Part shown: piece after piece, positions 7,034 through 53,019 of the stretch | Numbering within the stretch: position 1 is the first letter of the stretch | How the letters are laid out: each line of letters begins with the position of its first letter | Assembly (NCBI RefSeq): GCF_036711975.1 | Contig: NC_091975.1 | Span: 1,738,501 to 1,802,500 of the forward strand | Length of the DNA stretch: 64,000 nt | Direction of reading: 5' to 3' | DNA from: Onthophagus taurus | Taxonomy: Eukaryota; Arthropoda; Insecta; Coleoptera; Scarabaeidae | Program-made: the position numbers and the translations under genes | The notes under the pieces: generated by a model | Seen by the model: only the letters and a program-made list of their open reading frames with translations | Database searches by the model: none | Told to the model about the DNA's origin: nothing

Positions 7034-7617
7034 TTAAACAAAGACGTTAAAGCGAACCGATCAAAAAGATTTAATTATCGAATTTTTTTAATTAGTTTTT
7101 AATTAATTAAAATTAATACTAGTTGTACCTTGGGGAAGCACTTTCATGGTCCCAGCAAAAGAATTAGTGTACATATCATATTAAGAATAATTTAATTATC
7201 GGTTTTTAAATCCTTTTTATATCCTATGTAATTATTATTTCTCTGTGATACAGAAATTTTATGTATAATTTAAAAAAATACTGATTTTAAGAATAATAAA
7301 TAAATCATTTTTAAATAATCATTTTTTTTGTGGGGTTTTATTTAATAAACAGATCACATAGAGTATCATATTTTATATGTTGGCACTAAACTAAAAAAAA
7401 ATATAATTGGCGTACTCATAATTATTTGCGATAAACATAGAATCAAAAATACGGACACTTATCAAAAGAAAAAATACATAATAGTTACTAATAATAAAAA
7501 TATATGGTGTGATGTTAAACATTAAATATTAAATGGTAAATATGTTTTATAGAAAAATAATAAACACAAAACAAAATGGCATTAATTAATTAATTAATAA
7601 ATTGTCTTCTTCAGTCA
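7034..7617. other. Convergent 3' UTRs of draper and Mvb12
   Basis: AT-rich and without a gene. A plus-strand AATAAA at 7295-7300 suits draper. The minus-strand equivalent (tttatt) at 7337-7342 suits Mvb12. The two transcripts probably end within about 60 bp of each other or overlap slightly. Confidence 0.5.
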
Positions 7618-8905: not shown

Positions 8906-9094
8906 CAATACTTTTCAAGATCATTCGCTCGCTGCATTCCGAAGGTGGTTCTGGTTATTTCTAGTGCGCTGATTAAATACTAGTTAAGTAATCTAAGCCC
9001 CGCGGTAAGTGATAGATTTAATTTCAAACAATAAGAAAGAAATTTAGTCGCTCATAAAAGGTATCTCAAAGAGCCGGGTTTACCGGCTCTTAAA

Positions 9095-24480: not shown

Positions 24481-25907
24481 CCATTTTTTTTTTTGCTAAA
24501 AATGAAGATATTTCGATAACGGTTGTAGGTAAATAGGTCGAGTTTGGGTTCATTTTAAAGGATTTTTAATTTTCTATCCGTTAATGTTAAAAAAGAACAA
24601 CATTTGGTTTTCTTGACTCACAAATGATTTTCTCTCAAGTCAGTTACGCTCAATTGTGTGATGAAATACTTTGAAACACAATACTTTAAATTGTGTTTTA
24701 ATTGTTATTCAACGCTAAATTGATGTATATTTTTGTTGAACTAAAACTGGAACTAACACTAGACCTAGAACTAGAAACATTCAGGTTTAGCCGTTTTAAG
24801 AGACGTTTACCCTAACGTTTTTGATTCTAGGTCTAGTGTTAGTTCTAGTTTAAGTTGTTATTAATTTTTAAATTGCTGTATAGTTTTATTGAACTAAAAG
24901 TAGAGTGCATTTTCTATTTTCGATCGATATAAAGTGTATATGGGAGCTCTCTCCGTATAGTTATAATGTATGCAAATGTATTGTTAGGTTTAGGAGCCCA
25001 AAGTGTAAGCCAGGTGCTAGTAAAATACCTTAATTGATATTTGGGAGAGTCGCATAACTGTAAAACGTGCCCGAGAGTAGCCCTAAGTTTTCCTCGTGAA
25101 TAATTAAAATAGCGATATAAGTTCGAAGATTAACAAAAAAAAATTATCAACTCTATCTTTGCATATAAAAAAAAATTAATTAAAATGTCAAATTATTTTT
25201 TGTGATCATAAAAATAGATCATATTAATTAATATAAATAGAAGTGTAAGTAGAATTAGATTTTTTTGGTATTTTATTAGAATTGTTCCGTTTTGTTTTTG
25301 TATTAGGTGCTTTAGTATTTTTGTACCTTAACATAGAAGAGTATTAGAAATTAGAGGAGTAATGCCTAAACGAACCTACGAGTAAGTAGATTTACGATTA
25401 TTTTTCCTTAGTTTAAATGTATTTTGAAATGTCCGAAGTAGTAACGGCTTGATGATTTTATTTTATTTATACGAAGAGCGAATTTCTTGCCAAGATCTTA
25501 ACGTTTTTTTTAGTTAATTCCCGTAAACATTCCGAATGGTTTTAAAATTTTTTATCTTGCAAATCCACAGTTTTATTATCAGCTTCGTAGTCAGCTTGGT
25601 ATTAGTCGATTTAAAACTGTATAAATCTTGTAATCTATATTTTTTTAGTCTTACTAAAGATAGATAAAAATATATGTTATTTATTTGGTTTTAATTTTTA
25701 TTTCAATATTGAATCAAGATTTAAAGATTTTAATTTAGAAAAAAATGTTCCAATTTATTCGCATAATATAAATTCTCAAGAAATTTTCTTCTAGAAAGAA
25801 ATTTTTGGGCATATTCCCAAAATCTTAAATATCTAAAATCTTCACCAAATTCCAAAAACCGCTTAAAAATGGTTATATACCTGATAATCGTCAGAACATT
25901 TTATAAA
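24481..25907. other. AT-rich region with one foldback repeat
   Basis: A clear copy of the dispersed foldback family lies at about 24690-24900 (acactagacctagaactag, cattcaggtttagccg, gattctaggtctagtg). The rest is AT-rich with no open frame of note. The last few hundred bases lead into the satellite array. Confidence 0.45.
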
Positions 25908-27763
25908 TCAAAAATAACACGAAACCAAGACAAAAAATCATATCGGCTGTATTTTTAAGAATCATGATATGATATGTATGTTAAATTGAAGCTTAAAGGT
26001 TTTAGTTTATGATATGATATAAAAATTATATGATAATATTATTAAAATTTCGAGGAAAAAGTTATTAAACAAGAAATCGTCAAATTTATAAATCAAAAAT
26101 AATACGAAATTTCCAAAAATCATATCGACTGTAATTTTTAGAATCATGATATGATATGTATGTTAAATTGTAGCTTAAAGTTTCTAGTTTATGATATGAT
26201 ATAAAAATTATATGATAATATTATTAAAATTTCGAGGAAAAAGTTATTAAACAAGAAATCGTCAAATTTATAAATCAAAAATTATACGAAATTTCCAAAA
26301 ATCATATCGACTGTAATTTTTAGAATCATGATATGATATGTATGTTAAATTGAAGCTTAAAGGTTCGAGTTTATGATATGATATAAAAATTATATGATAA
26401 TATTATTAAAATTTCGAGGAAAAAGTTATTAAACAAGAAATCGTCAAATTTATAAATCAAAAATAATACGAAATTTCCAAAAATCATATCGACTGTAATT
26501 ATTAGAATCATGATATGATATGTATGTTAAATTGAAGCTTAAAGGTTCTAGTTTATGATATGATATAAAAATTATATGATAATATTATTAAAATTTCGAG
26601 GAAAAAGTTATTAAACAAGAAATCGTCAAATTTATAAATCAAAAATAATACGAAATTTCCAAAAATCATATCAACTGTAATTTTTAGAATCATGATATGA
26701 TATGTATGTTAAATTGAAGCTTAAAGGTTCTAGTTTATGATATGATATAAAAATTATATGATAATATTATTAAAATTTCGAGGAAAAAGTTATTAAACAA
26801 GAAATCGTCAAATTTATAAATCAAAAATAATACGAAATTTCCAAAAATCATATCGACTGTAATTTTTAGAATCATGATATGATATGTATGTTAAATTGAA
26901 GCTTAAAGGTTCTAGTTTATGATATGATATAAAAATTATATGATAATATTATTAAAATTTCGAGGAAAAAGTTATTAAACAAGAAATCGTCAAATTTATA
27001 AATCAAAAATAATACGAAATTTCCAAAAATCATATCGACTGTAATTATTAGAATCATTATATGATATGTATGTTAAATTGAAGCTTAAAGGTTCTAGTTT
27101 ATGATATGATATAAAAATTACATGATAATATTATTAAAATTTCGAGGAAAAAGTTATTAAACAAGAAATCGTCAAATTTATAAATCAAAAATAATACGAA
27201 ATTTCCAAAAATCATATCAACTGTAATTTTTAGAATCATGATATGATATGTATGTTAAATTGTAGCTTAAAGGTTCTAGTTTATGATATGATATAAAAAT
27301 TATATGATAACATTATTAAAATTTCGAGGAAAAAGTTATTAAACAAGAAATCGTCAAATTTATAAATCAAAAATAATACGAAATTTCCAAAAATCATATC
27401 AACTGTAATTTTTAGAATCATGATATGATATGTATGTTAAATTGAAGCTTAAAAATTCTAGTTTATGATATGATATAAAAATTATATGATAACATTATTA
27501 AAATTTCGAGGAAAAAGTTATTAAACAAGAAATCGTCAAATTTATAAATCAAAAATAATACGAAATTTCCAAAAATCATATCAACTGTAATTTTTAGAAT
27601 CATGATATGATATGTATGTTAAATTGTAGCTTAAAGGTTCTAGTTTATGATATGATATAAAAATTATATGATAACATTATTAAAATTTCGAGGAAAAAGT
27701 TATTAAACAAGAAATCGTCAAATTTATAAATCAAAAATAATACGAAATTTCCAAAAATCATAT
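25908..27763. repeat. Satellite array, 182-bp unit, about 10 copies
   Basis: The marker tcgtcaaatttataaatc starts at 26077, 26259, 26441, 26623, 26805, 26987, 27169, 27351, 27533 and 27715: exactly 182 bases apart each time, with only point differences between copies. The unit is very AT-rich and contains the self-complementary string atcatgatatgatat. The period matches a nucleosome repeat, as in many beetle satellites. The first copy (25908-26076) is the most diverged. Confidence 0.95.
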
Positions 27764-32641: not shown

Positions 32642-32752
32642 GTCATCATCATCACACAACAATATCATCATCATCACCATCAACAACGCAATCCATAAAA
32701 CACACACAGCATCAATGGCCGTTACCGTGTACCCAAACATGGAATTAAAGTG
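32642..32752 (+). other. Rbp6: Candidate alternative first coding exon of Rbp6
   Basis: A 3' splice site (gggttttttcag) precedes a short exon with ATG at 32715 in a good context (catcaATGG), coding MAVTVYPNMELK plus two bases, then a donor gtaaga at 32753. It ends in phase 2, the phase needed by the Rbp6 exon at 43335; joined, codon 13 would be TGT. The upstream acceptor implies at least one more 5' UTR exon. Function inferred from phase and strand only. Confidence 0.4.
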
Positions 32753-35700
32753 GTAAGACAACATTTTTTTGTTTGATATCGAAGGGGATGGCGAAAAAAA
32801 AATGATCGTCTTCTCTTTATTTCATTAACACATCTCTGGCGTCTGCTACTATTTAATACTATTAATAACCACGTACTTAGACTAGATTCTAGACGTTTGA
32901 GGCGTTTTATTTTAATGTCTTTATTACCACTTGAGAGCGTAAATAGACACACGTATACCCGTTTTTTGAGCCGAGCTATACTAACAATATTTTAGCGTCC
33001 GCATGCATAATTTATAAAAATGATATAAAATAACATTTTCAATTCAATCTTTAGGAGTATTATCGTATGTGGGTAGCACACCGCCCTATTTATTTAGTCT
33101 TAGTCGTTTGGTAATAGAATACTACATAGATATATATATCTCCTTCTACTTCGACCTCTGGAACTTATTAGCAGCGCGCGTGTGGGACGTCTATGTTTTC
33201 TATTCTGTGTATGTATGTGAGTGTTTTTTAATCTTTGTGTAAGTTTGCGTGGCGCGTATTAATTTACAAATACACAACGGTATAAGTAATTTTTTTTTGA
33301 TACTGCTGTCTCGATAAACTACCACTTAATCTCATATTTCTTCCCGAAACCTTTCAAAATAAAGCATCATGTAATTGGTGCAAAAAAATAGTAAGTGAAG
33401 TATCGAATGGTTCCGCGAAGCCCGTGAAATCGCCATCGGGGGAATAACAGGATTAGAAGAATCCTTATTAACAATGTTGGGTGTACACCGGTTAACAGTT
33501 GGGGACGCGCTCTCGTTCCAGTTCTACTCAAAACAATGGCTCATTGTTCGCCAGTTTGTGGCGGAGACGCTTCCTGAGATAGAATACAACAAAATCGCGC
33601 ACTCTTCCAACCAGATGATTACGCGGAACTAGAGAATATTATAACCACAAAAGACAACTTTTATGCAAGGTTACTAAAAATGTAAAAAAAGGGTTTAAAC
33701 AAAATTTACACAAAAATGATTGAGTCATTTGAGCAACGAATTAAATTATGTAATTAAAGTAGTCAACAAAAGTTATTTATTTCATTGTAACTTCAAATCA
33801 TGATGTTGTAATGATATAAAATGACGTCTGTATTAAGTTACAAAGATTCTTTTTGCATAACCAAGGTGTTAGTCTAGGATTTGAATAAGTGGCAGCTGAT
33901 CCTCATCTTCATATCTATATAGAACTTCTTCATATCCTCATCATGACTTTCTCGTCTTCATTCACTTTCAACAACTTTTTTCAACAACAAAAAAGCTGTG
34001 GTATATACTTCATGAAATGTAACAGAAAGATTTGATGATGTTTTCGGTATGTGTCGTTAATAATCACCAATTTGTACATAACATGGTGTTGTTGGCTCTT
34101 GAAGTCTTCGTAATGGATAAGTTTTCTTGAAAACAATCAAATAATAGTGGCATAACGCATTCTTCGGCTTCAGGGTATCCTGCGTTAGATTAACCAAGGT
34201 AACATCTGCTACCATAGTTTGAAGCATGGTTACCACAAATAGGAACAGTCTGATGCCTTATTCGTTTTTATCAGAAAAAAAAGATCCTGGGCAATTATCT
34301 TTTTGGTTTGAGTTGGATAACAGTACGGAAGAGATCGGAGAAGTTTGGAATGGGAAAATAATTTTGGATGTAGAACTATGATTCGTACTATTAAATAAAA
34401 ATGAAATTGGAGTTCTTCTTTCTAAAACTTATTACTCAATTACTCAATGATTTGTTTGCTGACAAACATACAGTTGACGAACTAGAGTGGCTCTCTTTAT
34501 CTTGTTGGAGAAATTGTGACTTATTCGTTGCCTTGGATTTACGGGGGATTTACGATTTAACTTCTGGTATCATTTCATTTTCAATACATTTGAACATGAC
34601 ATTTTGTTGTTTTTGTTCTTTATCTGATATGATTTTTTTTGGTTCTCCTTCTGATATTTTCCTCTGCCACAATATTTTGCTTATGATGTAGCAGTGGTTT
34701 CTAATTCTCTTCAAGTAATAATGTAACTAATTCGTGGTGCTTCAAAGATGACTTTTTGCCCATAGTTTCATCAAGTATTACCGTTGTATTTAATTAATAA
34801 TCATAAAGCAAATCCAAGTACCTGTCTCTTATATAAAAATTAATTATAATGGCAAAGAGTACAAAAATTTTCATCTTGATTTTAGACATACAAAAATAAT
34901 TGTTATTCACTTCCCAATATTTGCTATGCGTTATCAGTTTTTTTGACGATTCGTTTAAATGGTTTATCATTTAATCTTGTTAGGATTAAAAAAACGAGAT
35001 GATTTTTTGATGAAGTTTATTACATCGATGTTCACAGGTGGCGTTGCTTATTCCTCTCACGATTTCCTCCTAAAACTTCTACTACCCTATCGTTCAACAG
35101 ATGTCACCCAATCGGCAATTTTGTAAACATACACCCAGTATATTTAGAGGGAAACAATTTATTGATCAATTTGGGCTTTATTAAAATTTATGTCCAAATT
35201 TTTGTTGTTTTAAAAAAAGTAATTTTTGGTGTAAATTATTGATTTCTAAGATGAAACGACGCGTGCGCCCGAATACCTCTCCTAAAACCACTCTCACCAT
35301 TCATAATCTCTCGCATATTCCTGGAGATCGTGGACGCTTTAAGTGCATAGGAATGTTTATTCGCGGAAACTGTTGGCCCTCGACACCGACCCACACAGTG
35401 TACGGTTTTTCCTTTTTGGTAATCAGGATAATGTCGGATCCGTGCAATTACGACCGTAAATCAATGCTTGCTGCCGAGTCGACGACGACGGCAGCAGCAC
35501 GGTCTGGTACGAACTTGTCCGTACCGATGCATTCCTCGGTTGCGGGGGCACGCTAAATATGCTTGAACACGCGACATTACATATTTATAAAATCCCCTCA
35601 TCAAATCTGGATCATTAAAATTATTATTGTCTTTTAAATCGATTTAAATCCATATAATATCATTTCAATTTTTTTTTTGGTCCGGATACGATCCTGTATT

Positions 35701-36379: not shown

Positions 36380-39300
36380 ATGGCCACTATGCTCTTTGAA
36401 CCGAGTGCCCAATTTTTTTCTTGCACAGTCCCACCGCCAAATGTTATTGGGTAAGAATAAGAAATTTAACTTTATTATAAAGATTACGATTTAGATTATT
36501 TAATTTGAAATTGCTGCATGATTTAAATTTAAATTGAGTTACGTTAATATAAGAAAAACAATGCAGAAATTGTGGGGTCGCGTTATGTGCAGACTGTACC
36601 CAACCCGATTTTTACCTGAACCCGAGGGGGCTTTGTTGGGGATCGTTTCCAGAAGGAACTCACTCTATATTTAGAAAAGCTTCCCATTTAACTCTTAAAT
36701 TTAAGGAGAAAACCTTTCTTAAAGAAGATTTCTTCAAAACTCCACAACTTTTATTTTTGGGCGTCAATGTATCTTTATTTATACATTTTTTTGATTCTTA
36801 TACATATTTTGATTTTATTCCCTCTCTAATCCTTGATTCTTTTCCTCTTCATCCATCTCCCTATAAATCCTCGCCAATTCTGGTTGTGGGTTGTAAATTT
36901 CGTGAAACTTTAAAAACTGATATAAAAAAAAATAAAATTATATCGAGACAGATTTAAATAAACCGTTTATGTATGTATATATTTTTGTGAATCGTTAAAA
37001 GAAATCTTAATTGTATATAAAACTTAATAAGAATAAGTTCTTTAGATTTAGTAGATTTTTGATAAGTGTCGTGTGTCTTTTGGGTTGTCTAGAGTCTAGA
37101 TTAACCGTTAATTTGTTTATTTAGTTTGTTTTCTTTCCGAACCCATTCTTATTTTTTGGGTTCTTTGTACAAGGTGTACCATTTTGTTGTAAGCGATGTT
37201 TTTTTTGAATTATTTGAAAACAATTATTATTATTTTATTGAAATTTGGAATTGTACAATTTGTTTAATCATTTTCTAAAAATGATGTCTGGTAGGTGACC
37301 TCCCCCAGCTGTCACCACAAAATTGAGCCCTTTTCCCAAGTGTTTTGGGCGTATGTTGGTCTTAATTTGCTCAACAGTGGAGTGTCTGGCTTGTTGACAT
37401 AAACCTTGCTCTTAAGGTATCCCCACAGGAAAAAGTCAGGAGGCGTCAAATTAGGCGAACGCGTCGGCTAGTCGTAATTGCCATTTTTCGATATAAATCG
37501 ATTTGGAAACATGATACGCAGCAAATCCATTGTTAATCATCGAGCAGTATGGCATGTTGCATCAATTTGCTGGAATTGATTTAAATCGATCATTTTCTTC
37601 AAGTTCAGTTGCCAAACCGTCATCGTAGGTGACCTACAGCAGCTATAGTATCATCACTATACGTGTACGGGGGTCTTAACGTTGGGCTTTGATGTTGCCA
37701 CTGGCATTGAATTTCGCCACCAAACTTCGAATTCTCTTGACTGGGTGTTGAACGACTGCGATATTTAAATTTCACTATTTCTGCACGTTCTTGAGATGTG
37801 TAGTACTGAAATGACGTTATCAAACATGACGCTTTTAAAGCTGGTTGTCAAATTAATCAAAAGAAGCATCGGTTACAACAAAATGGTACACCCTGTATTT
37901 AAAAAAAACTTTAAACGTATTTCTTGTACTTTACATTAGAACAAATCGAGTCTAATTATTTTTTTTAATTCACGTTTATATTAACATTAACGATTAACTA
38001 CTCCGTTTTTATTATTTTTACGTTTGTTGTCGTACGCTGGCCTCCTCTATTAATTTCTTTAATTTAAACAGTATATATCTATATATTTATATATTTACAC
38101 ACACAGTATTTAGTGCGGATTGTGAAGTAGATGATTTTGTTCTCTGTATACCTTTGTCATGTTCGCTACTACCATAGCATTATTATTATCATATTTTGTT
38201 TTTAATTACTCTATTTTAACACATGGTCGTTAATTAACCAACCAAACCAAAAAAAATGTTTTTAAGCGAATCGAGTCTCCGAGAGAATATCCGGGGCTCG
38301 ATCGAACCTCTTTTTACTGATCGTATATTTTAGTTACACAGGAAGTGAAGGTGAGGCACGCGCGATCGGATTGAATCAAAGGACGAACTACACCGATCGT
38401 TGATCGAAAAGTTAACAAGAGTGGCCAAGGTAAAGAAACAAAAGTAAAAAAATAAACAAAAACCAATTAAATAAACCAGCAGATTACTATTTATAATTGG
38501 TAGAAAGAAATGTAGCGTACTAGAAATTGACGTTTTTTGCCTGTACTAAACCAATATTTTTATTATTACATCAAGAATTATACAGGTGTCTCATTGATGT
38601 TCGACAAGGCGTTTCATTCCAAATACTATTATTTTCTTTGCAAAATGTTTCAGTTAATATTTTTGACATAATATTTTAGTAGCCTTGACATATTATGACA
38701 ACTGAGACGTAACCTAAAAGTCAAATATTTGACATAACCTCTAAAATATGAATTGACACATATCAACCATCGAGTGCCGCCAACATAAAAAATGTTCCCT
38801 TATTTTTGACGTTTCTTAACTTTGAAAGCCAAAAATTTTAGCCATTTATGGGTTTACATTATTTTTACTCTAGTATTTGTGATTAAAATTATGCCACGAC
38901 TTACAGAAACACACTATAGATATGGTCAAGGACAGTAGAATCTATCAGGACTGCTACATCCATTGTTGTGACAACCTGCCCGCAAACTACGTCACACCAT
39001 TTTCCACGCCCAGCTGTTGTTATGGTCTATGCGTTTGCTGTGTATTTTTAGAGGTTATATCCTAGACGTATTCATATTATTTTTGAAGTTTTATGTTTTT
39101 AGACGTATTAATGTCTATCATATAACCTCTAAAAACGCAGACAGTTACCAGGCGTGGCAAATAGTGTGACGTAGAGTGCGGGCAACCAATCCCTAGTGGA
39201 CTACAAAAATACAATGGATGTAGCAGTCCTGTTAGATTCTACTGTCCTTGAGATATGGTTATATAAAAATAAAACCAGTTTAGAAGATTATTCAAGTAGC

Positions 39301-42300
39301 TAAAACCATAAAAGTTCAAATTTTGTTTTGAAAATGAGTTTGTTGAAAAATTTAAGTTGCAATTTTGGCAAAAACATTTTTGAAGGTTTCTCTAAAGCTT
39401 CTCATCCACTTATTCAGAGTAGTTTTAGTTGTTAATTACATCATCCATAATTAGATTTCCAGGAGAACTTGCAGTTGCTCGACATAAGCTTTGAATTGGT
39501 ATCATCTTGTTACAGAAAACGTTTTTAGGCTTAAGTTTGAAAGAAGTTAAAAAAAAAACGTTGTATGATAATCAAAAGTTTTCGGATAATGATGAGTAAA
39601 CCTCAAACATGTGTTCTTGGATATATTACGATGCTGAATCGGCAAAACATATCTGTTTACCGATAACGCTATTTAATCAGTTTGAAAATCCTATGTTTTT
39701 CGTTTTGACGGTTTAGTTTTTGTGTCAAAGGATATCTTCAGGAATACGTCAACTTAATATTTTAATATAATTTTTAAATAATGCACTTTCGAACATCTTT
39801 AAGACACCCGATGTATTCAATTAATTAACTATTAATTAGCTAATCTTTAGTGTTTTCGTCTCAATACAAACACAATCATCATCATCATCATTATTTTTTT
39901 TTTTAATTAACTCTTATTTTCATTTGTATTAAACCGTATTTATGTGTAACTTTATTGTAGAAGAAGATATGACGTGCAAAAGACGTTTTACACATCATAC
40001 TTTATTTTTTTACCTTAATAATAATGTATAAAAGGCCTTTTTTCTCCCTTTACCAACATAAAAAAATTAAAAAGAAGAAAAAGATAGTGGTCCTTTTGTC
40101 TCATTACTCGAGTACAATTGAGACCTTTCTTTTTTTCTATACCTTTCTTTCGCTCGCGGGTTTTGGTTCATAGCTGGGAAACGTCCCATTGTTTTGCTTA
40201 TTACCGGGAAGGGGGAAAAAGCAATATCAAGAATGAGGTTTCAATTGTACTGAGAGCACATTACTACAATATTTTATTTTTTGTATTAGTGTAGATGAAG
40301 TTTCGTTTTATGTGATGGGGGGGGCATGATCGAAACGAATAAATCAGTTTTAACGAGAAAGCTGATATATAAATAAGTTTTAAGTTATACTTAAAATTAT
40401 TTATTTAGAATAACTAATTTAATATAGTATTTAATTTAATTAGATTCAAAGGGGGGTCTTCGAAAATCGATACATCTCTTTATCGCCGTCGTCGGTAGAG
40501 GGTGCAACAATCGAGGTCGCCATTTTGAATGGATCGAACGTTAGAGGGCGCGCGCCGTTACCTCTCCCGAAGCCCAAAAACCCTCTTTGGGAGAGCGGGT
40601 GGTTGTTCCAAGGCGGAGGATCAATATTTAGCTCCACCCTACAAAGTCCCCATGTTTCCGTTCGCTTCTCTTCCATTGTTCTCATCTTTTAGACATTTTT
40701 CAAAAGCAAAAAGGGACTAAAAAGTAGCAAAATAGCAGACTTCTTTTTTGCCGTTTCTTTATTTAAATTCTTTTTGTTAAATTTTCTTTGTATTCTTCGT
40801 CGATTTTGCACCGGGATGTAATGTAGGAAATGAAATGTAGGGATTAAGAAAAATCTGTTCGATTTTAAATCACCACTTTTTCAAAAAATTTATATTTATA
40901 AAAATCACAAATTTGTAATAACCACTTTTTGTTGCACTTTCTTTAGTCTTCTTTTGGGGTGTTTTTGAAAACAGGGCTAGGGTCATGTCCCGAAGCAGCA
41001 GTAAAGGATAAAATACCTACTGCTGTGACAGGACAATATCCTAGACCTATTCGGTTTGTTATTCCATTTTATAACAATTTCTTCTTTTAATAATTCTCTT
41101 GTTTATGAGTTAAAGTTGTTTGAATATACAAGGAGAGGACGACCAGAGATTATTTTTAGGGGAGAGTTGCGCGTACGCGAACCCTACGAAGACTGAGCCG
41201 CGGGGGCGACGGGCGCCCTTCGTGTTGCCGCCACCATCGAAAACGAGCCTGCGCCGCCGCCGCCACGTCACCGAGAACCGCGCCCCGCATCACTAATGTA
41301 TACACACGTGCCTGATTCGGCGCTTTGCCACCCTTATTGATCGAATAACGGGGAAAGGGGCGCGCGCGCGATTCACCCCCGGGAACTTCTAACACAAAAA
41401 AAGAACGAAAAAAATAAATAAAATAAAAAATAGGATGACCTTTTTACTACTTCGTTTATAACAAGAAGAAGGTGTGTGTGTTTGTTGTAACAATTCCTCA
41501 TTGAGTATTGTTGGAATCTACTCTTTAATATGTAACAGACTCTTTTGCGCAGAAAATATATAGCAATTGTCTTCGACAAGAAAAAACTGAGTACTCTTTG
41601 TAACCAATCATACATTTAACTTCTATAAGCTCACGTTTATTTGATACAGACCATGGTTCAAAATCTGAAGAGAAGTAAAAATTTGAACAAAATTGTTAAG
41701 AATAACTTATTTGATACACTTGAATTCAGATATCCAACTTATAACCTGCTATTGATTGTTTTTTTAATTTAATATTTGGTATCCAAAACTTTAGCTTCTT
41801 CGAAATATGTTCCTTGTAAATTTAAGCCGACTTACCTGATTTTTTTTATTTATAAAGGGCTTCTTCGCCGAACAGTTTCAGCATTTCAAGACTTTCCTAA
41901 ATCTTCTTGGATTTCGACAGCCAATTCATTTACAAATATTATTCTTAACAATTACGTTCAAATTTTGTCTAAAAAATTCTGTGTTTACAATTCACACCTC
42001 TTTAAATTTTAAACTAGATAGTGTATCAAAGTTGTGAGCACATTTTTTTCATAAACCAACCATAACTTGCTGTGACAGTTTGCTTCTTTTCAGATAAAGA
42101 AGAGGATAAAAGACCGTAACATATTTTCAACATTCAACGTTTTTTAAATGTGTTTTAATCGTAATTTTATTTACTTGAATTATTTATGTATAAATATAAC
42201 ACCAAAAAACGAAATTTCTTTTTAAATAATGACACATTAAATGTCAACGTGACAAATTCATTTCAAAACATGACGTAACAAAATTCCCTGTTTCTCTTGT

Positions 42301-44592
42301 TACCAACTTTGTAAATTTTGACAGGTATAAAAAAAAATCCAAGTATAGTGAATTTTACTTACGATGTAATATACAAAAATATTTCTATAGAAACCTAGTT
42401 ACTTTATCCCACATAAAATGCAAATTATCAATAAAATTTGACATTTCTGACACTAGACCTAGAACTAGAAACATTCGGGTTTATCATCGGTGCGTCTGAA
42501 GACGCCTGAAAATGTACAGCTAAACCCGAAAGTTTCTAGTTCTTGGTCTAGTTTTACACTAGCACTATCACTAGAACTAACATAAGACCTAAAACTAGAA
42601 TCATTCGGGTTTAGCCGTCTTGAGAGACGTGCGGATAAACCTGAATATCTCTTGTTTTAGGTCTAGTGCGTCTCATAAGACGGCCGAAATTTCAGGGTTA
42701 TCATGTCACCTTTTTCCAAGCAAACCTTTTCTTTTGCAAAACTACCTAATGCCAGTACTATTAAGCTATATTACATTTTATGTGGGACAGTGCAAGTGCA
42801 TAGTAGTTTCGTAACTATGGTTACTCTGTATATGTTTTAGGATATCAAAAAATAAAAAAATGATAATTCTTACCTTGCTTACTTTTGGATTTTCCAGGTC
42901 GATTTTCTCATCAACTCTTTTCCCGTTTGGATCGCTAACTCTATAAACAAAAATTAAAATTAAACCTAATTTAAAAAAAAAATGTCCAACTTTAAAGAGT
43001 GAGTAGAAGATACGCTCTAAAAATCATTGTTAAAATAAATTAGTTACGTTTCCTTTTCACGGCGGCAAAATCTCGATTTCGCTTTTAATTTCACTCTTTA
43101 AAATTGTTTCGTTCCGTAAACGAATAAATCCAATTCGATTTTATTCGATTTCTTTATAAATTTAATACTCACAGACAATAGTCCGGTCTTGTCAACCATT
43201 GGTAAGTGACGAACCATGGAACATTGGCGTAAACGAATCCGGCGATGACAAATATCGGAGTAACCTAGAATAAAAAAAATGTTTTTATTTAATTGTGTTT
43301 TATATTTTTTTATGTTTATATTATTTTATTATAGTACTGCCATGAACGATGGCCGAAATGGTATTCTCGAGCAAGATCTTCACAGCTCTATTAAATTAAA
43401 TGGTAGTCATTCGGGATCGTCCGGTAGAAGCACTCCTAATAACAGCTCAGATCCCGCTCCAGGAAAATTATTCGTCGGCGGTCTTAGCTGGCAAACATCG
43501 AGCGAAAAACTCAGGGAATATTTCGGGATGTTTGGAAATGTTACTGATGTGCTCATCATGAAAGATCCAATCACGCAGGTAAAAATAAAAACTATTTCAG
43601 TTTTATTTTATATCTTTTTTGTTAAAAAACCAATAAAGTTTTTTTTTATAAATAGACTTTTATTATTGTCTTAAAAAAAACTTTATTACCTACTCATTAA
43701 ATTGAGTGGACTTGCCAAAATCTAAACGTTCCCTTTTTTATATTTTTAGAGAAGTCGAGGATTTGGATTTATAACCTTCTCAGATCCATCGAGTGTTGAT
43801 AACGTATTAAAAGTTCCGATTCATACCCTAGATGGGAAAAAAATCGATCCAAAACATGCGACGCCTAAAAATCGCCCAAAACAACCGAGTAAAACCAAAA
43901 AAATCTTCGTCGGCGGAGTCAGCCAAGATACATCGGCCGAAGAGGTTAAAGCTTATTTTAATCAATTTGGTAAAGTTGAAGAGACGGTGATGTTGATGGA
44001 TCAACAAACGAAACGTCACCGCGGTTTCGGTTTCGTAACCTTTGAAAGTGAAGAGGTGGTCGATCGCGTCTGCGACATCCATTATCATACGTTAAAAAAT
44101 AAGCGAGTTGAGTGTAAGAAAGCTCAACCGAAAGAGGCGGTTCAAGCGAATGCTCAATTATTGGGTAAACGGTTAATGTTGAGTGGTTTGGGGATGAGAA
44201 TGGCCGCTCCAACAGCGGGGGCGATTGCGGCTGCTGCTGCTGCAAATCCATTGGCTGTCGTTCAAGCTCAAGCTCACGTTCAAGCGGCGGCAGCGGCTGC
44301 AGCAGCGGCTCAAGCTCAAACAGCAGCGGTAACAGGATATGGAAAATTGTTATATCCACCATTAGCCGGTTATCGTTACGCCCCATACCCAATCCCAACA
44401 GTAAGTGCCGGAGTCGGTGCAGCTGCGGGCGGAAATCCAGCTCAAGGACCAGCAACAGCAGCTGCAGCCCCAGCTTTGGCACCTCAGGTTACAGCCAGTC
44501 CGTATCAAGGTTACAATTTAACTAATGTTGATATGTCAAGCTTCCAAGGAGTAGATTGGGGATCAATGTACGGAATGGGAATGTATGTTTGA
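36380..44592 (+). CDS. Rbp6: Musashi-family RNA-binding protein Rbp6
   Basis: Post-transcriptional regulator binding UAG-type motifs in mRNA 3' UTRs. Exons: 36380-36450 ([15 protein letters not shown]...), 43335-43578 and 43750-44592; phases 2 and 0 join in frame to give 385 aa. RRM1 has LFVGGL (69-74) and RGFGFITF (108-115). RRM2 has IFVGGV (157-162) and RGFGFVTF (196-203). The linker has [20 protein letters not shown], diagnostic of Musashi proteins. An alanine/glutamine-rich tail follows, ending [16 protein letters not shown], which fits Rbp6 better than Musashi itself. The RRM exons are certain. The first exon is inferred from phase, strand and a clean gtaaga donor; a second candidate lies at 32642. 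The last two exons sit inside an intron of a minus-strand gene. Confidence 0.85.
37168..37897. mobile_element. Mariner-superfamily relic
   Basis: The ends read tacaaggtgtaccattttgt (37168) and acaaaatggtacaccctgta (to 37897), an inverted pair. Between them the minus strand has broken transposase pieces: an N-terminal [10 protein letters not shown], and later [19 protein letters not shown] followed by a GGHL-like end. Frames are shifted and the core, including the first catalytic acid, is absent. It is about 730 bp against about 1.3 kb for a full element. Confidence 0.7.
38918..39259. mobile_element. MITE with long inverted repeats and 9-bp target duplication
   Basis: Element 38927-39250 lies between two copies of agatatggt (38918-38926 and 39251-39259). 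The termini start caaggacagtagaatcta and are inverted complements for about 150 bases with indels, sharing ggactgctacatccattg, ctacgtcacac and ttttagaggttatat. It has no coding capacity. A 9-bp duplication with long inverted repeats suggests Mutator or Foldback type rather than mariner. Confidence 0.75.
39260..42440. other. Rbp6 intron, no gene recognised
   Basis: Mostly AT-rich. GC-rich patches at about 40470-40680 and 41160-41395 carry overlapping open frames on both strands with no motif; the second is CpG-dense and may be regulatory. The last exon of the minus-strand NDUFA4-like gene should lie somewhere below 42874 but could not be located. Confidence 0.35.
42440..42840. repeat. Dispersed foldback repeat with linked second unit
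   Basis: Signature tracts (gacctagaactagaaacattcg, split as gacctagaactag and aacattcggg; ttagccgtcttgagagacg) are followed by the unit also seen at 5.1-6.86 kb and 48.7 kb: gttatcatgtcacc, ccaagcaaaccttttc, acattttatgtgggacag, gtttcgtaactatggttac. It lies directly downstream of the minus-strand exon at 42874. Confidence 0.7.
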
Positions 44593-47500
44593 ATAATGTA
44601 AGGTAGCGATTTGCTCATAATTAATCGCTTTTTTTCTATTTCTTAATTTTATTATTATTATTACTTTTTTTTGTTGAGAAAAATACTCTTCCCGTTTTAA
44701 TTTGAAGATAAAGACGTTAGTTGTAATAATAATAACGGTTATTATAACGATAATAATAATTATAATAACGACAAACAATAATTATATATGTATTAACAAA
44801 AAACTATTCTCATATGGACTTCCAAGTACATATTACATATACATATTTCTGCAAAAAATAAAAAAACATGGAGTCAATGGCAAAAAGAAAATGGTGTTGT
44901 GCCTGTTTCAACTTAAATAAGGCTTATTGTACATAGAATCTCATTAATGTTGTTATTTACTAAAAGAAGAACTGTTGCTTGGAAAAAAAGATTGATGGAA
45001 AGGAAATAACTGGATCAGTTTTACCAGAAACGTTTGTTATTTCGCCTTAGACTATTTTAAGCATTAAGTAAAAAACTTATTTATATTAAAAATTAAGCTA
45101 AACAATAATAATAATGTATACAGACGCGAAACGAAGCATCAAATTGCTTTTAACTTAACCGATTTCATAAAATAATAATTTTTAGCATTTAGTAGCAATA
45201 ACACGCAATAAGGAGGACAATTTTTCGATAGAAAACGGTATGAAAAACACGATCAGTATTAATTAATAGACGAAAACTAATCGAAATTAACTTTAAAAAA
45301 AATTAAAACTACATAAATCGTATTAGCGTGTACTTAAACTAATATTTAAAGAGAAAAAGAATAATAACTAAACCCCAATCTCAAGATCTCACTTTGCGTA
45401 GAACTGCGTTCATTTAAATCGATTTAAAAAAAAAAAACTTCCTTAAAACTATTTTGTCGACGCTTGCCAAAAGAATAATAGATAAGAAGGGAAAATCCCA
45501 GTTAATCTTCCAAAAAAAATCTTATTTTGTATTACTTAACAGGGTTTGTTTATTATTAATAAGTAATTAACAATTTATTCAGGAAAATGTTGAAATAAAA
45601 CGAAAGTTTGAAGGGTTAAAAAAAAATAAGGTTGATATTTTATTACCTAACTTCAAGTGAATGAAATTGGTACAGTGAAGACGTCAAATATGTAATCTAT
45701 ACTTCGTAAAATAAAAAGTAGTCACCCATGGTTCTTAAACGACAAAACATATTTTTATTACTTTATTTAACAAAAATAGAAGTATGTAATACATACTATT
45801 CAAACTAAAATACTCATCTGGGTCATTATCGGATTTATCGTCTTTATTTACCTCATCCGCTCGTTATAGGCGATACAAAACATGCAACATAATTAGTTCG
45901 TTATAACCGAGATTTTTAAAATTGTAAAGATAGGACTTAAAGGCATGCTCGTCTTCACTGTATTGTTATTATTCTAGGATATTGAAATTTTTTTTGGATC
46001 ATTAGAACAAACCCTAATAAGATTTTTTTGTAACTCCTAATTTTCTTTACAACTCCTCATCTAGTCAATCAAAAAAAAAAAGAAATCGTTTTTTCCCTAA
46101 AAAAGAAAAAGCATCCCTTCAAAGATGACTTTTCTTTCTCTCCTACATTCCTTAATGTTTTTTTTAATCGAACAAAACGGTTTTAATCGTACCATTCTTT
46201 AAATTTTAATTTAAATTTACAAGAAACTAATTAGATATGTGATTTACGGACCAATGTGTCGCTTACGACGGCTGACTGCCGAATAAAAAAAAAATAAGCT
46301 GTTAAAACCCCTTTTTTATCTAAGTAAAAAGATCTCGATTGATTTCCGTTCCTTTTTAAACCTACTGAAATGTATTAATTCAAGTTTATGATATAAAAAA
46401 TCGGTTGGAAAATTAAAAAAAAAATTAATAAATAAATACTCGTATGTTTTTTCTTTAGTGGTGTATTAATACACAAAGTAACTGTGATATTTATCGTAAG
46501 TTTTTAATAGAATAAAAATCATTGAGGTTTTTTGTAATTGGAGAAATTGGGGTTTAAACACTTAAATAGAAACTTCCGTAATTTAAAACATAAATAAACT
46601 CATAAACTCGATAATATTAGTTTAAAGGAAAAAAATGATTTTTAATAATTAATAATTTAATAAAATGTACAAGGCAGTTATTTTCTTTTTTATTATTAAT
46701 TGATTTATTAATTATTTTTTTCAAATACGTTCCGTGACTGTTTTTTTTTTAATTTTAAGTAATTTATTGTAGAACGCCGTTCGAAAAAAAATGGTGTATG
46801 ACTGCTCAAACCTTGTGATAATTGTTAGGTAGCGGCAGGTGCATATACAAAAAAAAATTAGGTCGGGCTCCCGTTTCAAAGTGCCAAAAAACGTTAAAAA
46901 CCTATTAAAATAAAAAGTTTTGGGGGAACGGAGCCCAACCGACGGTGTCAGTGCGTTCGATAAGCAACAACAAAAAGAAATTAAAAAACCATAATAATTA
47001 AAACATTATTAAATGGTGTTTGCTTATTGGGGCGCTTTCTCTAATCCGTTATTAAACAGCAATAAGTGTTGTGAGACAAGAATTAAGCCCTCTATTTTTG
47101 TATTAGACTATTCCTAGTTGGTAGAACTTAAAAAAGAATGAAAATTGTAATAATCAAGTTTTCCTCAAGTTTTAATCCGTTAGTTCCCATCACGCCCCCT
47201 ATATTCAAAACGAACGGTTTTCTCAAACCAATCCCAAATTAAAATAAAAATTAAAATTAAACAACTTCGATAAGACTCTCGAAGCGTTTTGATTGTTGTA
47301 AATATAAGACGTAAACGTTAATAATCGATAACGCTGGGCCTTTTAAAATCGTTGGTACAATTTTGAGTAAATTTTTTTTAAAAAATTGCATCATCGGTTT
47401 TAAGGGGTGTATAACTTTAAGGATTTAAGTATTTAAGGATTTTACTCTCGGTCAATAAATATTATACATAATATATCTTTTATCGAAACGAATATAAACA

Positions 47501-50500
47501 CTGGATCAAAAAAAAAAGGATTAGAAAAGATTTTTGGAACATAATATCTACAAGATAACCATTAAAATGAACGAAAATGAGAAGAAAATAAGTATTATAC
47601 TATTATTATTTTGACGTATTATAGAAAAGTAACGAGAAACTTAAAAAAATAATTAAAAAAAATTAGTGTTAGTTTTTTGTAGTAAGTATGTTTGTGTGTA
47701 GCGTAGTCTACATTGCACTGTAGTAGAGTTGTATTGAATAAAGTAGTCTTATGAACGTAGAGTATTGCTGTGCTTGTTCAAAATACAAAAAAAAAATAAA
47801 TTACCTCGATATTATACATATTTAACTTGCTTGACAAAAAAAACATAACATCATACTTAAAAAAGCAGATAAAAACGCGATTTTTTATTTAAAAAAATCG
47901 TTGCTACCGCTATTTATTATTATTACCTATTTACTTAATACTCACCACTATTTACTACTATTACTACTATTTAGCTGTTGTAACAGTAACAAAAAGTATT
48001 AATTAATAGTTTTAAAAAAATGTTACAAATACATTTTTAATTTTCCCCAAACATCCTTTTAATTTAATTTTAATTTCTTTCTTTTACCCATAATTTCTTT
48101 TTTATCAAATAATTCTAGTCCTTTTTTTTAATTATAAAAAAAAAATAATCACTGCTTACTGTGATAACAGTCTGGTCACTCACTGCACGGTTTGTGTCTG
48201 TGTATAGCTGTTTTTTCCCGTGCCTTACCGCACTGCGGATCGGACAATACTTAAAAAGAAATACCGAGAAAAAATCTTAAAAAAATAATAATGTCGATAT
48301 TAAAAAGAAACAAACATCGAGTGAGACCAAAATGATAAATGGAACTGCGGAAACAAAAAAAACTTTTAAAACGCTGATTAAGAACGAAATAAAGTTTTAA
48401 AAAAGATCCTTTGTAGATATACTACAAAATTAACTAGAGTAAATAACAAAACTTTGTAGAGTGTCGTAGAATACTTGGCCTGTTTGTGTATGCAGTAGAA
48501 GCAATTATTCTCTTCCCCCGACCCCCCTTTTCTTATTAATATGGAGTCATAAAAATTTGTTTAAAAAAAATATTTGAAATGTAAATCATTAATTAATATT
48601 AATCTAACATTACTTTAGAATTATTCCCTTCTCTTCAATAACACCATGATGCTTGCGTATCATGGTTAATCCTAATAAAATTAGGGAATTTCATATAACT
48701 CGCAATATATGAATAGACAGTAACCACAATTACGAAACTACTATGGACTTCCATAAAATGCAACATTGCTTAATAGTACAGGCATTGGAGTTTTGCTTGG
48801 AAAAAGGTGACGTCCTTATGATAACCTGAGTTTTCGGCCGTCTTTAGAGACATGCGGCTGAACCCGAATAATTCTAGTTCTTGGTCTAGTGCTAGTAAAC
48901 TAACACTAGACATAAGAACTAGAAATATTCGGGTTTAGCCGTGCGTCTTCAGACATCAATTATAATCATTTTTAAGATAATCAAATTTCAAGTAGTTTTC
49001 TTTAAAATTTTTATGACTCACTATATTATTTTTTAATTTAATAAATTTGTTATTTCCCATGAAGTAGGATTTTTGATTAAAACAAAAACAAGTACCTCTG
49101 CTTCATCGATGTGTTTTTGATTTTCCTAATTCTTTTCATTTTATTAATTAATCGTATTTTTAAACGTTGCATTTTTTCTTAGGGGCATTTACTTAGAAAC
49201 GAGGCGTAGGTTTTATTATTCTTATTACTATAACTATAAAGAGGTTTCTATCTTTCTTTGATTTATTTTTACTTAGATTTATTTTTAGAAGTTGTTCTTT
49301 GCGTAGATTTTTTTAAAAACAAAATAAATCAAAAAAAAAATCATTTCTCAAGAAAATTAATAAGATAAAATTGGGAACATGTACTCTTCGTTCATCGTTA
49401 GACAAAGACGTGCCTTGTTGTCTTCCTTGGCCTTTGTTGTTTTAAAAAAGAAAAAAAATCAAGACGATGACAACGCTAATTAAATTTAAAATTTTCAAGC
49501 GTTCATACAATAATCAAAAATGATTATTAAAATCAATTAATCAAGACAAGGAAATAAAGTAACGCAAGAGGAAAATGAAACGACTGTTACAGACGAAAAA
49601 ACCCCCTGACATATCGTTTTTTGTAATATAACGAAAATGATTAAGAATTTAAAGCAAAAAAATAATAAAATAACCATAGGTTTAAGACTCTTCTGTTTAA
49701 TAGACTCCTACTACTACATTTTAAAACATTAAACGCAAAAAAATATTCCAAAGATTTAATTTTTTTGGATTTAAAAACGATTTTTTTCTAATCCAAAAAA
49801 AATATATTAATACAGTGTCAACTTACAGGCCTAAAGTACAAATAAATTTCGTTTTGAAATGTGTACAAATTTGTCCTTTCTTTTTATTTTATTTCTAGTA
49901 AATAATCCCTTTTTATATTAATTTCATTATTTTTGTGTGTTTATGGATAATGGTATAATCTCATATTTTTAAGATCAAAATAAGTCCATATTCGGATTCT
50001 AGTTAAAATCTCTACAGTGAAAGCTCTCTAATAAGCGGGACAGTGACGCTTCCATTACTTTTGTCCACTTATCAGAGATGTCCTGAGACATCTCATACAG
50101 AGCTTACGAGAAAAGTCGTATGTTCGAATAATTAATGATTTTAGTTTAGAAATCATATTCAATGTGTCTTTATAAAATGTGATTGGATCCTCTTCCCGTT
50201 TTCCCTCAATTTCAACATTTTCCGAAAAGTTTGTGTCATCTGTATCGACGTTTTGATCAAGAGTTAAATCTTCTGATGTTTTTACATTATCTATTCCCAG
50301 TTCTTTACTACATATATGTAAATCAGCTAGACTCGCAAGTGGCAAATTATGTTCACCATCGTAGTCACTGTCAGTTGAACTTCCTTGCTCCATTTGTTGA
50401 AACAATTTCTAATTGTTAGATTTAATAAAATACAAGCTCTCTGTTGTCACTTCGACGTCTTCGTCTGATTACTCACGCGCCCGCTTAAGGGAAAGAAATT

Positions 50501-51760
50501 TATATATGAAAATATAAGTTTAGGGTTGATTCTAAGATTTTTGTCCGCTTATTAGAGCTGTCCGCAAGGAGAGCTTTCACTATATTATAAACATTTATCG
50601 CCAAACAGTTATATTTTGTTATAAAACTTAATCCATCTATCAAGTAATGAGACAATGAAGATTTGGTGCACACTTCAAAGTTATTATGCAAATTAAATAT
50701 GTACATTTTATTTCAATATTTCTATCGGTCTATATTCCCTGGTTGCTGGAAAATCCATTCTTCTTAATTATTGTACGTGACACAATCTCAAAAAATAATC
50801 CTTATCCCTTATTGAACTATGATGTGTGTAGGATACAGGGAGATCTCCAAGTTGATAAACAAGTATCTTTTGCCAATAATTTAGCATTATTTTCCGCCAA
50901 TCTTGCTTTGCACAATCGAGTTCCTTTTGAGGCAATTCGTGATGAAGCCAGATTTATTTCGCTCTTAATAAAATAATTAGAACAGATAAGTTGGTATCGA
51001 TTAAATCAGTAAAAATCTTACCTTTCTCATTGTAATCCGCTTTCTTGACAACATTTTTTTCACTTCACCAGTCTACATTTTATTGTTATCCGAATCTCCC
51101 GGAGATTCAAATTAAGTATTTAATAAAGTACATAGTTAAGTACATGATATAATCAATCAAATTAACTACGAATGACTTATAATAGAGTTAATTAATTAAA
51201 CAAAGCAATCGACCTATTTTGATCTCAAAAATAAGTTTTATATTAACCCACATTTTTAATAAATACGAAATGTTACCAAGAAAATGTGAAGTTTTAATTA
51301 GTTAAATCGTAAGGTTTGTATAAATTTTATTTAAAATGTCATTTTTTGAAACTTGATGTAGCGCCATCTTTTGGTGTCTTTCCCAAATTTAATAATTAAA
51401 CATTTTTATTGAAAATAAATTAAAAAAATTACTAAAATTCGACTACGATAACATTAAAAATCAGTTTTTGTTTTGGATTTTAAATAAATTTGGTTTGGAT
51501 AACATTTTTTTTAACTGATTTTTAGTTCCAAATTGAGGTTATGTTTGATATTAAAGTTTGATTTCAAAATGATTTTATTTATACGTATCATTTCTTACCT
51601 CGGGATGTTGTCTTATGTAAAAATCGACAGTGTCTTTTCCCCTCCAAAACGGATTATTCTAATAAAAATACAAACAAAATTAAGATGAATTTTTTTAAAT
51701 TTAACAAGATATAAGTTTACTTACAGGATCGGCAAGTTTTTTACTCATTTTGATACCCAT
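42874..51760 (-). CDS. NDUFA4/MLRQ-like small mitochondrial membrane protein (3' end missing)
   Basis: Minus-strand coding exons: 51760-51725 ([12 protein letters not shown]), 51658-51599, 43264-43173 and 42940-42874. Every boundary is GT-AG and every phase fits (0, 0, 2, 0), giving 85 residues ending in an open frame at a gtaaga donor, so a last exon is still unlocated. From [12 protein letters not shown] to RPDYC the protein aligns without gaps to the NDUFA4 pattern HP-x3-P-x-FV-x2-G ... L-x2-PD-x-C, around a single hydrophobic segment (about residues 35-53). NDUFA4 is an inner-membrane subunit associated with cytochrome c oxidase. The similarity is modest and the N-terminus is longer, so an insect paralogue or another small respiratory subunit is possible. 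The 8.3-kb intron contains the RRM exons and 3' UTR of Rbp6 on the other strand. Confidence 0.6.
44593..47765 (+). other. Rbp6: Rbp6 3' UTR
   Basis: AT-rich, no gene on either strand. A canonical AATAAA at 47737-47742 followed by a GU-rich stretch (gctgtgcttgttc, about 47767-47779) is the best end point, giving a 3' UTR near 3.2 kb. Weaker AATAAA signals upstream (for example about 45595) and one at about 48391 could give other ends. A Pumilio-type tgtaaata lies near 47297. Confidence 0.5.
47662..47747 (+). promoter_or_regulatory. Cluster of Musashi-type binding motifs at the Rbp6 poly(A) site
   Basis: Six matches to the Musashi consensus (G/A)U1-3AGU fall in 86 bases: ATTAGT 47662, GTTAGT 47668, and GTAGT at 47679, 47703, 47720 and 47743. 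They surround the AATAAA at 47737. This suggests that Rbp6 binds its own message, an inference from motif density. Confidence 0.45.
47766..50012. other. Intron of the NDUFA4-like gene, downstream of Rbp6
   Basis: No gene seen. 48660-48965 holds a reversed copy of the composite repeat (tttcatataactcgcaatat, acgaaactactatgg, gcttggaaaaaggtgacg) joined to a foldback core (cggctgaacccgaat, atattcgggtttagccg). The rest is AT-rich with homopolymer runs. Confidence 0.45.
50013..50584. mobile_element. Pogo/Tigger-type DNA transposon remnant
   Basis: The ends are inverted: cagtgaaagctctc with ctaataagcggga (from 50015), and tccgcttattagagc with gagagctttcact (to 50582), flanked by TA at 50013-50014 and 50583-50584. 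The terminal sequence and TA target fit pogo/Tigger elements. Only the C-terminal part of a transposase frame remains, so most of the element has been deleted. Confidence 0.65.
50055..50405 (-). pseudogene. Tigger-like transposase C-terminal remnant
   Basis: A 116-codon minus-strand frame starts [19 protein letters not shown] and is acidic, with [10 protein letters not shown] resembling the acidic tail with a LPL/IPLSQL-type box of pogo-group transposases. No helix-turn-helix or DDE catalytic segment is present. The frame lies inside the inverted repeats. Identification rests largely on context. Confidence 0.4.
50585..51590. other. Intron of the NDUFA4-like gene, no gene recognised
   Basis: A 96-codon open frame at 50686-50976 (+) has no known motif and is probably chance. 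A 13-mer agcgccatctttt begins at 51360 and recurs at 53069 and 53237. Otherwise AT-rich. Confidence 0.35.
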
Positions 51761-52016: not shown

Positions 52017-53019
52017 ATGTTATCTTTTAGTTGTAAACTCCTAAAAATTCCTTCTAATAGAAATTTAATTGTAAATTTATGCAAATATTCTACTATAAAG
52101 GTAAGTAACTAATTTTATTGTATTCCATAAATTAAGATCTAACATTTTATTGTTTATAAGGAAACTAAAATTCAAGTAAAAAATCAAACAATAAATTATG
52201 TAAAAGAAGGAAATGGTCCCCATAAAATCCTCTGTTGCCCTGGTGCTCTTGGAACAATTTGGAGTGATTTTAAACCACAAATAGAGAAATTAGATAAGAA
52301 TCAATTTACAATAATCGCATGGGATCCTCCGGGATATGGATTTAGTAGACCACCGAATCGAGTTTTTAACAAAGAATTTTATAGAAACGATGCTGATATG
52401 GCTTTTGAATTTATGAAAACGTTAGGGGAGGATAATTATTCCATTTTAGGGTGGAGTGATGGTGGAATTTCAGCAATGATTTTAGCAGCTAAATACCCCC
52501 AAGTCTTGCGTAAATTAGTCACCTGGGGATCAAATGCTTACATTATCGAATGGGAATATCAACAATATGAAAGTAAAAAAATATGCTGATTATTTAAAAA
52601 TTCTTGGTGGAATTTTTTGTAGAAATTCGCGATGTAAGTAAATGGTCGGAAAGAATGCGTGCACCATTGGTAAAATTGTATGGAAATGATGGCTTGCAAA
52701 AGATGTGGGGAAGTTGGTGTGATGCAGTTGGGGAATTATACAAAAACGGAGGCGATATTTGCAAAGCAGATTTAGTAAAGATAAAGTGCCCTACTTTTAT
52801 ATTACATGGTGATAAAGATCCTTTAGTAGCACCTGAACATCCTGAGTTTTTAACTAAAAACATTAAGAATTCAAGGTAATAATAATATGATATCGTTAAT
52901 TTATGATGTTATTGTGTTCATTTTTTAGGTTATATAAGTTTCCAGATGGTAAACACAACATTCATTTAAAATATTCTGATGAATTTAATGATTTGGTGAC
53001 TAAATTTCTTTTAGAATAA
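52017..53019 (+). CDS. BPHL: Valacyclovir hydrolase-like alpha/beta hydrolase
   Basis: Serine hydrolase of the BPHL family; hydrolyses alpha-amino acid esters in mammals, physiological substrate unclear. Exons 52017-52100, 52161-52572, 52623-52875 and 52929-53019 join in phase (0, 1, 2), giving 279 aa against about 291 in human. The catalytic triad is visible: Ser127 in GWSDGG, Asp231 in HGDKDPL and His259 in DGKHNIH. Other family marks are CCPGALGTIWSDF, WDPPGYGFSRP and IRDVSKWSERMR. The first exon (MLSFSCKLLKIPSNRN...) is basic with hydroxylated residues and no acids, consistent with a mitochondrial targeting peptide. An AATAAA lies at 53063. Confidence 0.93.

Follow-up and report, generated by a model that had tools for sequence, protein, structure and literature searches.

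Can two genes on opposite DNA strands be locked into one another, so that each keeps exons within the introns of its partner, and does anything else lie within such a lock? The question is raised by a stretch of 64,000 nucleotides from the beetle Onthophagus taurus (NC_091975.1, hereafter the window), which forms part of contig C10 in a genome of 290.8 Mb and 33 contigs. An annotation made from the letters of this DNA (hereafter the initial annotation) had proposed that the RRM gene Rbp6, on the plus strand, interdigitates here with a small NDUFA4-like gene on the minus strand. The results of our analysis, which draws on exon positions, reading frames and phases, a conserved intron position and the placement and strand of a microRNA, indicate that the locus is most likely an interlock of three genes, namely musashi (msi), the NDUFA4-like gene and mir-1000 (an estimate that covers the structure and not the transcriptional steps considered later). 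At the level of sequence, the interleaving of the two protein-coding genes appears well supported, with some corrections to what had been proposed.

The four minus-strand exons of the initial annotation lie where it had placed them, all with GT..AG borders and in phases that fit one another (table 1); the third intron measures 232 nt. Each splice site was scored with hand-set consensus matrices, its rank being taken among the GT or AG sites found on either strand of the window; codon scores came from a table trained on 2354 codons in 15 of 16 chosen stretches (3403-3777 was dropped because it held no open frame as cut). In the consensus ranking, the donors at 51599 and 42874 fall within the top 0.3% and 0.25%, those at 51725 and 43173 within the top 1.2% and 4.7%, and the acceptors at 43264, 42940 and 51658 within the top 0.4%, 1.1% and 2.5%, respectively. 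The proposal that these exons encode one small protein holds for the exons and their phases but not for the completeness of the gene, since they contain no stop codon; a fifth exon (36916-36815, discussed below) is predicted to complete it. The gene would then have at least five coding exons and encode 118 amino acids over 15 kb, the predicted product having one hydrophobic segment and being of the type of NDUFA4, a subunit of cytochrome c oxidase. When the four-exon protein was used to search the same genome, the three candidates that received a score all turned out to be exons of this very gene, so that no second copy is seen at that sensitivity.

The NDUFA4-like identity proposed initially is supported by a profile match, an alignment and the position and phase of an intron. 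The Pfam profile B12D (PF06522) matches residues 29-61 of the four-exon protein (E 2.2e-4, 20.9 bits), across the junction of exons 2 and 3. The NDUFA4 chain of the PDB set is matched weakly (E 0.32 and 0.52, with an unrelated protein ranking better both times), the alignment at E 0.32 pairing QHPEVTPIFV...TRPDYC with KKHPSLIPLFV...FNPDVC and residue 32 of the window protein with residue 14 of NDUFA4. The HP-x-x-P motif, the single hydrophobic segment and the P-D-x-C turn, which on our own reading define the family, are all present. Human NDUFA4 has its intron 1 after codon 14, according to the available part of the source (c.42+1, 14 in-frame residues; PMC3701321); because residue 32 aligns with residue 14, the 8.3-kb intron of the window gene, in phase 0, occupies the place of this human intron. 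The comparison assumes equal numbering for the PDB chain and the human protein, with which the exon-1 primer of the same study, encoding QAKKHP, is consistent.

A B12D search of the beetle genome produced one match above the cut-off (C10:4736615, 56.3 bits), which we read as the canonical NDUFA4, and one below it (16.2 bits). The canonical gene encodes 81 amino acids in three exons and starts MQGMSISSLKKHRA/LIPLYF (slashes mark splice borders); its intron at KKHRA/LIPLYF, again in phase 0, is at the position of the 8.3-kb intron. Intron 1 was thus found in phase 0 right after the codon that follows HP, as in the human gene, or HR, as in the canonical gene here. The last intron is also in phase 0 between K and F in both beetle genes (canonical QYK/FYSP, window VSK/FLKF), the two sites lying four residues apart in a gapless alignment. 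Given its match in position and phase to human NDUFA4 intron 1 and to the canonical gene of the same genome, the 8.3-kb intron appears credible.

Several results weigh against this kinship. The B12D score remains below the curated cut-off of 21.5 bits for both the four-exon (20.9) and the five-exon protein (20.1), the window gene is not among the matches of the B12D search of its own genome, and blastp finds no real similarity between the window protein and the canonical NDUFA4 (E 1.7). The codon scores of exons 1-4 (+0.9, -0.5, -2.2 and +2.2) lend little or no support and, being near zero, are of no help in judging these exons. We use the label NDUFA4-like, rather than assign the protein to the family, because the B12D cut-off is not reached, and regard the gene as a far-diverged relative. 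The same low score, together with the 8.3 kb that separate the two sets of exons, could suggest that those at 43 kb and at 51.7 kb belong to two separate genes whose phases are compatible in appearance only; yet both the B12D match and the NDUFA4 alignment span the junction, which itself lies at a conserved NDUFA4 intron position and phase, and such a split seems to us very improbable.

The partner gene on the plus strand encodes two tandem RRMs (RRM_1, two stretches, E 2.5e-32), and it is its name that we revise. In the available text of Siddall et al. (PMC3507872), the RRMs of fly dMsi and Rbp6 are 58.7% and 78.7% identical, respectively, to those of mouse Msi-1, and fly Rbp6 extends over 173 kb, most of its exons (12 of 15) being shorter than 93 bp. 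The RRMs of the window gene are 61% identical (103/169) to a mammalian Msi-1 sequence, close to the value of dMsi. Moreover, contig C1 carries, over 129 kb (C1:9111779-9241263), three short Rbp6-like matches at 63%, 73% and 81%, the second of which crosses two stops and has uncertain exon borders; on the same segments the window gene scores lower (60%, 57% and 69%). Since the matches on C1 exceed the window gene segment by segment, and since 61% is near the dMsi value, the plus-strand gene is best called msi, with an Rbp6-like gene on contig C1. Rbp6 itself would call for an identity of about 79% and for numerous small exons spread across more than 100 kb, and was rejected as a name for a gene having two large RRM exons and 61% identity.

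Whether the two genes are interleaved or merely nested depends on the start of msi. The opposite-strand exon edges at 43264 and 43335, already noticed for their closeness, are separated by 70 bases (43265-43334), and because the gap is so short any upstream msi exon must lie to the left of NDUFA4-like exon 3. The initial annotation, in claiming true interleaving, showed no such exon; we find one plausible candidate at 36380-36450, with which the msi frame stays open without a break as far as the stop. This exon was spotted by eye before the donor cut-off was lowered: with the original threshold of 8, which 13 donors reach, its donor at 36450 (7.6) is missed while another candidate of 12 codons, 32715-32752, passes, but among donors scoring at least 6 in the right phase with at least 15 codons from an ATG, 36450 is the sole candidate in 14.3-43.25 kb. 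An open reading frame (ORF) at 35431-35556 (MSDPCNYDR...) was discarded as a first exon, since by eye it has no donor in the required phase.

Two values count against the proposed structure of msi, namely the codon score of the exon at 36380 (+0.6) and the rank of the acceptor at 43335 (only top 5.1%). They are compatible with simple nesting, in which the promoter of msi would lie just before 43342, inside the 8.3-kb intron, with no exon to the left: the exon contains an ATG after its first seven bases, at 43342, the acceptor in front of it is moderate, and the candidate at 36380 has a low codon score and no confirmation from a second species. Nevertheless, the 70 bases before 43335 resemble a T-rich intron end with TATAG, and 36450 is the only candidate in the search at donor scores of at least 6 (with the cut-off lowered after the exon had been noticed). 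We hold simple nesting to be unlikely and the first coding exon at 36380-36450 to be somewhat favored by these data. If this predicted exon is correct, three NDUFA4-like exons, and not the two counted initially, would sit inside an intron of msi; a non-coding first exon of msi located farther left would likewise produce interleaving. Between the coding exons of the two genes no overlap is predicted.

The third of these exons is the predicted fifth exon of the NDUFA4-like gene, which was first picked for its coding-like look and tested afterwards. On the minus strand from 42820 to 20000 there are 23 acceptors scoring at least 7, six of which open frames of 20-39 amino acids; acceptor 36916 scores 9.8 and is followed by 33 residues and a stop, with three AATAAA motifs, the first starting at 36819 and overlapping the stop, the others at 36779 and 36755, one of these lying 35 bases past the stop. 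Among the window acceptors with a score of 8 or more, 93 over the two strands, an ORF of 20-150 amino acids with a codon score above 5 follows 36916 alone. A terminal-exon test (acceptor at least 9, ORF of 25-150 amino acids, codon score at least 5, AATAAA near the stop) yielded no match when run on 200 Markov sequences modelled on this stretch, which together hold 324 acceptors scoring at least 9.

Against this exon, the same test returned one match among 33 acceptors on both strands of five loci elsewhere, each about 10 kb long, and the acceptor at 41664 (10.8) and others near 10 equal or beat that at 36916. Given these acceptors and the six open frames, acceptor strength alone cannot single out the last exon. 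The gene might end upstream of mir-1000, with a last exon beginning, for instance, at 41664 (13 codons to a stop) or 41388 (score 8.2, 31 codons), which would leave the microRNA downstream of the gene instead of within an intron. Both alternatives fail the combination of a 20-150 amino acid ORF and a codon score above 5 that 36916 passes, and the exon at 36916 has in addition the AATAAA 35 bases past its stop and a K/F start in phase 0 as in the last exon of canonical NDUFA4, so that we deem an earlier end improbable. Exon 5 and the first coding exon of msi nonetheless stand as predictions only. Of note, an open frame on the plus strand at 36553-36957, opposite the 3' end of the NDUFA4-like gene, contains a FYVE-like fragment of 14 residues (17.0 bits, cut-off 27.8) that is probably due to chance.

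The third gene of the interlock, mir-1000, was absent from the initial annotation. Its precursor is recognized on the minus strand at full model length (table 1), the plus strand giving 43.2 bits, below the Rfam cut-off; the predicted folding energy of the hairpin is -40.3 kcal/mol (z -6.46, 0/200 shuffles as good), and the 21-nt 5p mature sequence is identical to that published for silkworm miR-1000 (available text of PMC2824724). If exon 5 is right, mir-1000 would lie in sense orientation within intron 4 of the NDUFA4-like gene; with respect to msi it would be antisense, inside the predicted intron. In Drosophila, an intron of msi is probably the annotated site of mir-1000, which none of the matches listed in a literature search states; if so, the linkage would be old.

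The chances that mir-1000 derives from the NDUFA4-like transcript or from a promoter of its own seem to us about even. A GC-rich patch at 41150-41420 (57% GC vs 33% in 36917-40900), which may be a promoter or an enhancer, precedes mir-1000 by about 100-370 bases on the strand of the latter and speaks against a simple host relation. It leaves nearly balanced the view that mir-1000 is transcribed independently, from a promoter of its own around 41.1-41.5 kb, and lies in the intron incidentally. For this view TATAAA motifs at 41854, 41460 and 41073 may also be cited, although such promoter motif matches are unweighted, occur in AT-rich DNA and constitute no proof. Additionally, fly miR-1000 is altered by light in the visual system, according to the accessible part of a review (PMC6906196), whereas broad activity would be the expectation for a gene driven from a short divergent promoter.

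We considered two potential targets and rejected both. For msi, the stretch 44593-51598 contains four seed 7-mers of miR-1000 where 200 Markov sequences average 2.3, and 44593-46500 contains two where they average 0.8; these are too few for a signal in the presumed 3' untranslated region (3' UTR). For canonical NDUFA4, the seed match ACAATA is absent from the 430 bases that begin 13 bases past its stop. When public collections were searched for insect DNA with mir-1000, viral_contigs returned 0 stretches and genome_contigs one, which was bacterial: an exact match to the 21 nt within a gene of Zophobihabitans entericus (L025, 6803-6823). There is no Rfam match at 6000-8000 of this bacterial locus, and the coincidence is probably due to chance.

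Table 1. Positions of the genes and elements discussed, numbered within the window unless a contig is given; slashes mark exon/intron borders.
Feature	Position	Strand	Remarks
msi first coding exon, predicted	36380..36450	+	23 residues (G); donor TGG/GTAAGA; phase 2; moderate confidence
msi exon, N-terminal part and start of RRM1	43335..43578	+	
msi exon, remaining RRM1, RRM2, C-terminus and stop	43750..44592	+	followed by 3' UTR
NDUFA4-like exon 1 (coding part)	51725..51760	-	12 residues; donor CCT/GTAAGT
NDUFA4-like exon 2	51599..51658	-	20 residues; donor GAG/GTAAGA; phase 0
NDUFA4-like intron 2	43265..51598	-	8334 nt; msi RRM exons within, on the opposite strand
NDUFA4-like exon 3	43173..43264	-	31 residues; hydrophobic segment
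NDUFA4-like exon 4	42874..42940	-	22 residues; donor AAG/GTAAGA; without stop codon
NDUFA4-like intron 4 (if exon 5 is right)	36917..42873	-	5957 nt; mir-1000 inside, in sense
NDUFA4-like exon 5, predicted, new	36815..36916	-	33 residues and stop
mir-1000 precursor	40975..41046	-	Rfam RF03299; 74.4 bits vs cut-off 50; model 1-72 of 72
mir-1000 5p arm	41039-41019	-	
Canonical NDUFA4 of the same genome	C10:4736615-4736725 (locus L023)		B12D match; about 3 Mb from the window
Alpha/beta hydrolase gene, first coding exon	52017..52100	+	MLSFSCKLLKIPSNRNLIVNLCKYSTIK

How might such an arrangement work? To the right of the NDUFA4-like gene starts an alpha/beta hydrolase gene, which we take to be BPHL-like, and the two ATGs are divergent and 256 bases apart, a closeness that suggests a shared and broadly active promoter. 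From this compact divergent promoter the hydrolase gene would be transcribed rightward and the NDUFA4-like gene leftward, as a pre-mRNA of about 15 kb that would run across the 3' region, the RRM exons and the intron of msi; with its end near 36.76 kb, it would stop some 300 bases short of the first coding exon predicted for msi. Splicing would take out the 8.3-kb intron with the msi RRM exons and the 6-kb intron with mir-1000 in sense, leaving a small mRNA and possibly releasing mir-1000, while msi would be transcribed rightward over the same DNA. Polymerases that pass the NDUFA4-like poly(A) site would enter the start region of msi, and for this reason interference might be strongest there. 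The two transcripts could interfere in cis and the interlock could keep the genes linked; transcriptional interference or antisense pairing, as raised in the initial annotation, is possible. The full combination, in which mir-1000 comes from the NDUFA4-like pre-mRNA, an old insect interlock is held together and the antisense transcript tunes neuronal msi as a counterpart of the C15orf48/miR-147b system, seems unlikely to us.

Other elements are scattered over the window. Related repeat copies, with direct and inverted matches, occupy 42447-42831 and 48713-48957, one set in each of the large introns of the NDUFA4-like gene, and may represent a small mobile element. Farther left there is a satellite-like array at 25900-27763 (182-bp unit, about 10 copies, 97% matches) and, judged by the look of their translations alone, a plus-strand pair of long frames at 9035-14219 resembling a non-LTR (long terminal repeat) retrotransposon (a zinc-knuckle protein, then endonuclease and reverse transcriptase) and a minus-strand frame of 304 amino acids at 21353-22267 resembling a Tc1/mariner-type transposase.

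Nested or overlapping gene pairs on opposite strands are common in insects, and in mosquitoes overlaps involve up to about 10% of genes (PMC3689595). The present locus shares with the overlaps of Aedes and Anopheles (PMC3689595), as with ceh-10 within polq-1 of Caenorhabditis elegans (PMC12274878), a pair of genes on opposite strands that use common DNA, mostly introns. It differs from what the available parts of these sources describe in that exons of both genes sit in the introns of the partner, whereas the mosquito pairs are classed as embedded or partially overlapping; for the worm, the nested gene has been shown to affect its host. Among the matches listed in a search of the open-access literature on interleaved genes and mir-1000, this locus was not described. 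Full interleaving with a microRNA inside seems to us a less usual variant of known overlaps. Because neither inversion nor translocation could separate interlocked genes without breaking one of them, one can test directly at this locus whether gene order is maintained through interleaving. Fly miR-1000 is described as limiting glutamate release (accessible part of the review PMC6906196); that this conserved insect microRNA shares its strand with a respiratory-type gene and opposes musashi alters the choice of promoter to examine for its control. In vertebrates, a small NDUFA4-type gene, C15orf48 (also NMES1, MOCCI or MISTRAV), also carries a microRNA, miR-147b (available parts of PMC7793259, PMC8035321 and PMC8654286), and the microRNA linked to C15orf48 targets NDUFA4 (PMC7793259). 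In the beetle, by contrast, the microRNA is mir-1000, its predicted place is intronic and the 430 bases examined past the canonical NDUFA4 stop contain no ACAATA; the vertebrate system is a parallel in layout rather than in sequence.

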